DNA of 64,000 nucleotides from Phycisphaerales bacterium (lineage in GTDB: Bacteria; Planctomycetota; Phycisphaerae; Phycisphaerales; UBA1924). Each line of letters opens with the position of its first letter. Positions within the stretch are counted from its first letter, which is position 1. The notes under the pieces were generated by a model. It was given only the letters and a program-made list of their open reading frames with translations, did no database searches and was not told where the DNA came from. Positions 18,200-21,210 of this stretch are shown here, one piece after another. Made by a program: the position numbers and the translations under genes. The stretch spans positions 64,449 through 128,448 of the forward strand of contig JAFIFZ010000031.1 of the NCBI GenBank assembly GCA_020831775.1. Reading direction: 5' to 3'.

Positions 18200-18520
18200 A
18201 TGGCCACCAAGACCGCCAAGAAGACCAGCGTGAAAGTCCGCCCCCTGCACGACAAGGTGCTCGTCCGACGCGACGAGGCCGAGGGCAAGACCGAGAGCGG
18301 GATCTTCCTGCCCGAGTCGAGCAAGGACAAGCCCAAGACCGGGATCATCGAGGCCGTGGGCGACGGCGAGCTGAACACCGAGACGGGCGAGCGCGTTGCG
18401 CTGACGGTCAAGCCGGGCGACCGGGTGATCTTCAGTTCGTACGCGGGCACCGAGGTCAAGCTCAACGACGACGAGCTTTTGATCATGTCCGAGAGCGAGA
18501 TCCTGGCCGTCATCGCCTGA
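18200..18520 (+). CDS. groES: Co-chaperonin GroES
   Basis: A 106-residue GroES that caps the GroEL folding chamber. Typical blocks: VRPLHDKVLVRRDEAEGKTESGI, the mobile loop, IIEAVGDGEL, VKPGDRVIFSSYAGTEVKL and DELLIMSESEILAVI. It has an N-terminal extension of about 10 Lys/Thr residues. ATG at 18200 has a GAGGAG site. No CIRCE element is visible upstream; TTGACA near 18148 could be a -35 but no clear -10 follows. Three foreign-looking genes separate it from groEL. Confidence 0.97.
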   Translation: MATKTAKKTSVKVRPLHDKVLVRRDEAEGKTESGIFLPESSKDKPKTGIIEAVGDGELNTETGERVALTVKPGDRVIFSSYAGTEVKLNDDELLIMSESEILAVIA

Positions 18521-18536
18521 TCTAGAGAGGACCCCA

Positions 18537-18893
18537 GTGCAAAGCAGAGTGTTGGCCGAGTTGCTGTTTGAAGCCCTCAAGAACAGGGAGCCGATCACGC
18601 TGAATATTGATGGAAACCTTCTCCGGTTTTCCATGCTCAAGGGCGTGCATGTGACAGCAGAGCACTCATCGATGCTCGCCGCCGTCAAGCGGGACATGGA
18701 AACATGGTCTCACAGCAGCAAAATCGAGGTTGATGAGTCTAAAAGCAGCAATTTCATGGTGATTGGCGACTTTGAGCAAACGCCCGCACCAGTCTGCCGT
18801 CCGGAGAGCGACCTCGATACACTTCCTTGCTCTACAGAAGTACACTTTGAGCCGGAAGCTGTGTCAGCGATTTACTTCCCAAGCCCCTTGTAG
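18537..18893 (+). CDS. Unknown protein, first gene of the groES-groEL insert
   Basis: A 118-residue protein starting GTG at 18537, with AGAGAGGA upstream, 16 bases after the groES stop. It is mildly acidic, with no signal peptide or membrane helix. Base composition is clearly lower in GC than groES or groEL. It ends HFEPEAVSAIYFPSPL; the next protein ends similarly (TAEAVVWIQIKLPF), so the two may be distant relatives. I do not recognise a family. A small immunity- or antitoxin-type protein is one possibility, not supported by any motif. Confidence 0.75.
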   Translation: MQSRVLAELLFEALKNREPITLNIDGNLLRFSMLKGVHVTAEHSSMLAAVKRDMETWSHSSKIEVDESKSSNFMVIGDFEQTPAPVCRPESDLDTLPCSTEVHFEPEAVSAIYFPSPL

Positions 18894-18902
18894 GCTCGCA
18901 CT

Positions 18903-19127
18903 ATGAAGCCAGATCAACTCAGACAGGCGCTGAAAGAGCTCAACGGAGATCGAGACTGTATTTTTGGACTGTCGGGGATGCCTGAGAACCGCTCAATCCT
19001 TACCGTGACAAAAGCAATGCTTGTTCCTGACGAACCGGATCACCTCGTCAAAGTGACCGACGGATCGAGCATCTACATTTTGACCGCAGAAGCTGTGGTT
19101 TGGATTCAGATCAAACTGCCATTTTAG
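18903..19127 (+). CDS. Unknown protein, second gene of the groES-groEL insert
   Basis: A 74-residue protein, ATG at 18903, 9 bases after the preceding stop. It starts with an amphipathic helix (DQLRQALKELNGDRD) and continues with beta-like strands (SILTVTKAMLVPD, HLVKVTDGSSIYILTAEAVVWIQI). It is acidic and soluble, with GC content lower than the surrounding chaperonin genes. Its C-terminal EAVxxIxxxxP pattern echoes the preceding protein. No family recognised. The 9-base spacing indicates co-translation with both neighbours. Confidence 0.72.
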   Translation: MKPDQLRQALKELNGDRDCIFGLSGMPENRSILTVTKAMLVPDEPDHLVKVTDGSSIYILTAEAVVWIQIKLPF

Positions 19128-19136
19128 GAGACTCCA

Positions 19137-19397
19137 ATGCCGAGACAGCCAGGCTTCCCAGATCCAGACAAGGTGTCCCCGAATTCACCCTCGGTGATCG
19201 TTCCGGCAGAACGCGTTTTGGCGCTGTACAACAATGCAAACCCTAATGGCAAGCAGTTCCAGAAGGTCTCCAAGACGGTTCAGACTTGGTTCGAAAACAA
19301 GGCCCACGAAGCCGGCTGGCACTCCGTAGAGTTCCACGGCGATGTCACGGGCTATTCTGGTCTCGGCGCAGTACTTCGCAGGAGGTTCGGTCGATAG
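19137..19397 (+). CDS. Unknown basic protein, third gene of the groES-groEL insert
   Basis: An 86-residue protein, ATG at 19137 with TAGGAG overlapping the preceding stop, so coupled translation is likely. The Pro-rich N-terminus (RQPGFPDPDKVSPNSPSV) is followed by a helix (AERVLALYNNANPN) and an aromatic/basic end (VQTWFENKAHEAGWHSVEFH, then GLGAVLRRRFGR). It is positively charged overall. No family recognised; with its acidic neighbours it could form a complex. A gap of 101 bases separates it from groEL. Confidence 0.72.
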   Translation: MPRQPGFPDPDKVSPNSPSVIVPAERVLALYNNANPNGKQFQKVSKTVQTWFENKAHEAGWHSVEFHGDVTGYSGLGAVLRRRFGR

Positions 19398-19426
19398 CCA
19401 GTTCGCTCACGACCCGTAGATACTGA

Positions 19427-21130
<1,704 letters not shown>

Positions 21131-21161: not shown

Positions 21162-21175
21162 GGGCGCAACTCACA

Positions 21176-21210
21176 GGCGCGGCCGGCAACCCCCGGCCGC
21201 GCCTTTTTTT
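21176..21210 (+). terminator. Intrinsic terminator of groEL
   Basis: GGCGCGGCCGG (21176-21186) pairs with CCGGCCGCGCC (21193-21203), followed by seven T. Confidence 0.95.

Follow-up and report, generated by a model that had tools for sequence, protein, structure and literature searches.

Few bacterial operons are better known than groES-groEL, which is usually regarded as consisting of two genes. In the DNA analysed here, a 64-kb stretch of a planctomycete contig referred to below as the window, three small genes are found between groES and groEL, and the locus raises the question of whether these genes are intruders in a chaperonin operon or belong to it. A first-pass annotation had regarded them as low-GC genes of no recognised family lodged in a gap that would otherwise be empty, and had suggested that they encode a protein complex or a small toxin/immunity-like module.

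Layout and composition of the locus

The two chaperonin genes, groES (Cpn10; positions 18200 to 18520; PF00166, E 1.1e-32) and groEL (Cpn60, 543 aa; 19499 to 21130; PF00118, E 8.4e-81), follow one another on the forward strand in the order that is kept across the family, and a strong intrinsic-terminator-like site lies on the same strand 3' of groEL (21175 to 21204). Between them, also on the forward strand, are ORF1 (118 aa, GTG start; 18537 to 18893), which occupies what we call the upstream slot, ORF2 (74 aa; 18903 to 19127), and ORF3 (86 aa; 19137 to 19397), in the downstream slot. The gaps that precede the three genes measure 16, 9 and 9 bases, and the ribosome site of ORF3, TAGGAG, overlaps the stop codon of ORF2; coordinates, gaps, starts and overlap are all as the first-pass annotation gave them. 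The third protein had been described as basic, which agrees with its predicted pI of 9.9, and ORF1 and ORF2 are acidic (predicted pI 4.9 and 5.1). No terminator-like site was found on the forward strand between groES and groEL, no CIRCE element within the 64-kb window, no Rfam family at gathering score in the region, and no sigma-70-type promoter-like site. Since the genes run in one direction and no forward terminator-like site precedes the end of groEL, the gap genes are probably carried on the chaperonin transcript.

The three genes had also been described as poorer in GC than both chaperonin genes. This is borne out by their GC content (ORF1 0.528, ORF2 0.491 and ORF3 0.570, against 0.648 for groES and 0.674 for groEL) and by their GC3 (0.64, 0.54 and 0.66, against 0.95 and 0.97). 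Moreover, no other stretch of equal length in the window, the mean of which is 67.5% GC, is as poor in GC as the 978 bp from 18521 to 19498 (52.8%).

A third gene in the primary groESL operon

We took as primary the operon whose GroEL is 78-100% identical to the GroEL of the window; nearly all of the operons compared come from environmental assemblies. Within the same family, the groES-groEL gap of this operon is mostly 280-650 bp long, and nearly all gaps hold a frame of 67-90 aa with the consensus M..DQLRQAL.ELNGERD......AMLIPDEPDHLVKVTDG..YIIDAERVAWIRIG. ORF2 is present in the primary operon of 25 of the 31 family genomes in which the site is readable. A genome-wide profile search of the six others found no convincing copy elsewhere, and in two of them the gap holds only a small protein of the upstream-slot type instead; ORF2 is dispensable, as these six genomes do without it. 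A blind scan of 84,980 species genomes with a sequence pattern returned 80 loci, every one of which has groES upstream, and groEL was seen downstream in 79, the contig of the remaining locus ending too soon. Eleven positions are invariant among 69 sequences of the ORF2 family. In a phylum-wide sample, convincing matches were confined to three families of the order, and in two other families the gaps of the primary operon measure 84-152 bp and carry no ORF2-type gene.

Across much of this planctomycete order, ORF2 is a third gene of the primary groESL operon. The picture of three genes lodged in an otherwise empty gap is not supported, as relatives of ORF2 occupy the site across the family. Because these relatives hold the same place with native GC, ORF2 is a resident gene, of which this genome now has a diverged version in place of the original, and not an intruder; what stands of the supposed foreign origin is that the cassette is foreign as a block. 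The locus resembles an ordinary bicistronic groES-groEL operon in gene order, in strand and in its single terminator-like site after groEL, and differs from it in having a resident extra gene and two variable slots within the primary operon.

The slots on either side of ORF2 are filled only sporadically, and with genes that differ between genera; in nearly all genomes ORF2 stands without ORF1 and ORF3. The upstream slot is occupied in about ten of the 80 loci by extremely divergent proteins of 79-127 aa, all of which end in ..V..[I/V/L]. ORF1 has one clear relative, found in the same slot of a genome from another genus (G036) that has no ORF3. ORF3 occurs in three of 301 genomes of the order (that of the window, G011 and G200), always between ORF2 and groEL, and its relatives are not accompanied by ORF1. 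At locus L128 (4218-4523), a different protein of 102 aa lies between ORF2 and groEL and ends in PDDILEVI, a barrel-like pattern; it is possibly another small barrel.

Two or three groES matches were found in almost every genome of the order, and ORF2 accompanies the primary operon alone. The second operon of five relatives (L015, L016, L024, L046 and L059), with a GroEL about 54-58% identical to that of the window, has in its gap a gene for a protein of 119-134 aa, HRDLVAWQ..FGLVSQLRRAAVSIPSNIAEGYGRG, which we take to resemble the four-helix 23S rRNA-intervening-sequence proteins. In further groESL operons of L021 and L027, a gap of about 1 kb between groES and a divergent groEL holds a gene of 299 aa, the product of which presumably resembles a sulfotransferase.

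Replacement of the stretch between groES and groEL

Two genomes of the same genus (G001 and G002) permit the edges of the foreign block to be placed closely. Their sequences are 92-97% identical to the window as far as the end of the groES stop codon, and identity resumes just before the groEL ribosome site, AAGGAG, at 19485 to 19490 on the forward strand, the first clearly native bases past the cassette. The cassette accordingly spans 18521 to 19484 on the forward strand, its right edge falling between 19475 and 19485. Between the same points the sister genomes have 343-353 bp with ORF2 alone, and the cassette cannot be aligned with them as DNA except for part of ORF2 (66-69%). With junctions this sharp against both genomes, the proposal of a foreign origin is upheld for the three genes taken as a block.

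The one gene that can be compared has diverged out of proportion to its neighbors. Between the window and its genus, protein identity is 69% for ORF2 and 99% for GroEL, and in codons that specify the same residue on both sides, a comparison from which some misaligned non-window pairs with indels were left out, third bases differ at 65-67% of positions in ORF2 against 4-7% in groES and groEL (6% in groEL). The GC3 of ORF2 is 0.96 in the sisters and 0.56 in the window. In other pairs of close genomes ORF2 is 93-100% identical, with one further outlier, L105 and L117, of which L117 has a mosaic ORF2 and a relative of ORF3 and L105 has no such relative; the pair L086 and L079 differs by the gain or loss of an upstream-slot gene. 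Mutation alone is implausible as the source of such divergence in ORF2 over the same time, and the block was therefore replaced: the whole groES-groEL stretch of the window has given way to a lower-GC cassette made up of a diverged ORF2 with ORF1 upstream and ORF3 downstream.

In the tree of ORF2 sequences, the copy in the window groups with those of the same genus (support 99/93), on a long branch. Derivation of ORF2 from another genus was rejected on this placement, and the likely donor is a relative of lower GC outside the sampled genomes, and not a member of a distant genus.

As to the means of exchange, no recombinase was found among the three genes with Pfam and no repeat pair at the cassette junctions, so that both the recombinase gene and the terminal repeats of an autonomous mobile element are missing. 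No relatives of ORF1, of the ORF2 family or of the ORF3 family were confirmed in viral contigs, and neither plasmid records searched with ORF1 and ORF2 nor phage records searched with ORF3 gave a match. The simplest route would be recombination between the conserved groES and groEL flanks. Short palindromic or tandem repeats lie beside ORF2 in some genomes, in the gap after it in L086 and in the gap before it in L058 (ACCACAGAGGCACAGAG...; GTGCCCAGTGCCCAGTGCC), and intergenic repeats of this kind might aid recombination.

Predicted folds and possible roles

Scans of the three proteins against Pfam, NCBIfam, PHROGs and PADLOC gave matches at chance level only, and the profile of ORF3 found nothing usable in the PDB or Pfam. 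The observation that the genes belong to no recognised family holds to the extent that no library names ORF1, ORF2 or ORF3. The AlphaFold2 model of ORF2, which is of high confidence, consists of a helix and five strands (pLDDT 94.5). That of ORF1, built on 11 very divergent slot sequences whose alignment is uncertain, has a pLDDT of 75.6, with a core near 90, and follows the same order of elements with a low-confidence insert. The best PDB matches of ORF2 are Gemin6/7, Hfq and other Sm-type barrels (Foldseek E from 0.07; VIA Z up to 5.7), and the core of ORF1 matches SmD2 with a Z of 7.1 at 2.2 A, and SmD2, other Sm proteins and Hfq in general with a Z of about 6-7 at an rmsd of about 2 A over 60-68 residues; these Hfq-type matches are middling (Foldseek E 0.07 or worse, Z below 8), in a range that the tool calls common for shared arrangements and too low for a shared fold to be taken as a sign of kinship. 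On these models, both ORF2 and ORF1 are predicted to be Sm/Hfq-like small beta-barrels. The C-terminal pattern that ORF1 and ORF2 had been noted to share, EAV..I, is real and corresponds, in both models, to a short helical turn that leads into the last strand. The earlier hint of a complex appears plausible, given that both proteins are predicted to be such barrels.

The likeness to Hfq (PF17209) and to Sm and LSm proteins lies in this predicted helix and five-strand barrel, in which a short turn precedes the last strand. ORF2 differs from them in being acidic, in being encoded in a chaperonin operon, and in lacking both a profile match and the Sm2 signature. Among the 69 sequences of the ORF2 family and 11 of the upstream slot, none matched an Hfq or LSM profile at E up to 1. 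The Sm2 signature precedes the last strand and reads YKHA in Hfq; in the ORF2 family the corresponding place reads D-A-E-R-V, and for these two reasons we do not file ORF1 and ORF2 as Hfq or LSm proteins. Profile comparison detected no significant homology between the ORF1-type and ORF2 families, nor between ORF3 and ORF2. DUF3107 (PF11305; TB9.4 in PDB 7rur and SRB in PDB 9nip) is the most frequent weak Pfam match, with 13 of the 69 ORF2 members, and supplies the top PDB profile matches. The two are alike in their last third (L.K.TDG...I....VAWI.IG against LLTLTDE...MIHTARIAYVEIG), whereas the position of the helix, judged from sequence, appears to differ. DUF3107/SRB was rejected as the home of the ORF2 family, as its E-values are not significant and the cut-off was not reached (best per-member E 0.012-0.02; PDB relatives E 0.75-1.4). 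The entry 9nip, deposited as Small RNA-Binding protein, is a weak match to the ORF2 profile (E 0.75-1.1) and is absent among the structural matches listed.

The explanation that we find best for the locus as a whole, and to which we give about an even chance, is that of an exchanged cassette of Sm/Hfq-like barrels with a chaperonin-accessory role, made together with GroES and GroEL. The barrel protein ORF2 would be produced from the groES-groEL transcript and would work with GroES and GroEL; its most likely role is that of an acidic accessory that forms oligomers and binds proteins, serving the chaperonin or its clients as an adaptor or modulator. Where the upstream slot holds a barrel such as ORF1, this barrel and ORF2 would probably assemble into mixed oligomers, and in genomes that lack ORF2 the upstream-slot barrel may stand in for it. 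Recombination would exchange the contents of the slots, with the highly conserved groES and groEL genes on either side as its probable sites. A bolder and less likely reading is that of a dedicated third chaperonin component, an Sm-like barrel made from the operon's transcript that assembles with GroEL, GroES or clients and whose exchangeable partner barrels are swapped by recombination. An accessory to the chaperonin is favored over an RNA regulator because of the acidity of the ORF2 family (median pI 5.5 and a negative net charge throughout), which mildly suggests a somewhat better fit to protein binding than to RNA binding. The invariant residues of the family include R7, R17 and K50, which could also serve nucleic acid binding. 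No obvious difference was seen in GroEL tails or GroES mobile loops between operons with and without ORF2.

An RNA regulator ranks next, and we consider it doubtful. As an Hfq-like binder of the groESL transcript, or of small RNAs, ORF2 would set the GroES:GroEL ratio or the stress response, with the variable genes as its partners or as spacers. Such a role would suit the predicted fold, the three invariant residues just named and the appearance of 9nip among the weak nearest profile matches, and it may be vacant, as no Hfq was found above the cut-off in 41 related genomes of the order in which controls were positive. That absence, however, is common to relatives that also have no ORF2, and the acidity of the family, the D-A-E-R-V at the Sm2 place and the missing Hfq or LSm profile match argue against RNA binding. 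It is unlikely, and slightly less probable than the RNA regulator, that the gap is a mere permissive landing site where highly expressed neighbors shelter passengers unrelated to the chaperonin. The sporadic slot genes that differ between genera, and the quite different gap genes in the secondary groESL operons of some relatives, are what such a site would be expected to hold, yet ORF2 is kept at one place across many genera with its 11 invariant positions, is missing from the genome whenever it is missing from the site, and has beside it an upstream slot in which proteins ending in the same pattern recur.

We consider it very improbable that the assembly is at fault and has put a cassette from another organism into the contig. 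The junctions do fall at the ends of conserved genes, places at which an assembler might change from one sequence to another, but the order of upstream slot, ORF2 and downstream slot that characterizes the family is kept in frame with the native groES and groEL, the ORF2 of the cassette groups with those of its genus, and analogous differences separate other pairs of close genomes. Least probable of all is the toxin/immunity or defense module within the chaperonin operon at which the first-pass annotation had hinted. Small adjacent genes of foreign composition with a basic and an acidic product invite the idea; it fails because the three genes do not occur as a set, ORF2 being mostly alone and relatives of ORF1 and ORF3 never being found together elsewhere, and PADLOC, PHROG and Pfam gave no usable match.

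In the literature, where subscription papers were thinly covered, we found nothing on planctomycetes that describes a gene conserved between groES and groEL, which is weak evidence of novelty. The locus can be described as a groESL operon that has a resident and exchangeable cassette of predicted small barrels. The near-exact swap between two conserved genes is a clean natural cassette exchange without a visible mobile element, and a third gene that many genera of a single order have retained, with a predicted Sm/Hfq-like product and variable neighbors exchanged as a cassette, suggests that the chaperonin has an accessory, or an RNA regulator, that had gone unrecognised.
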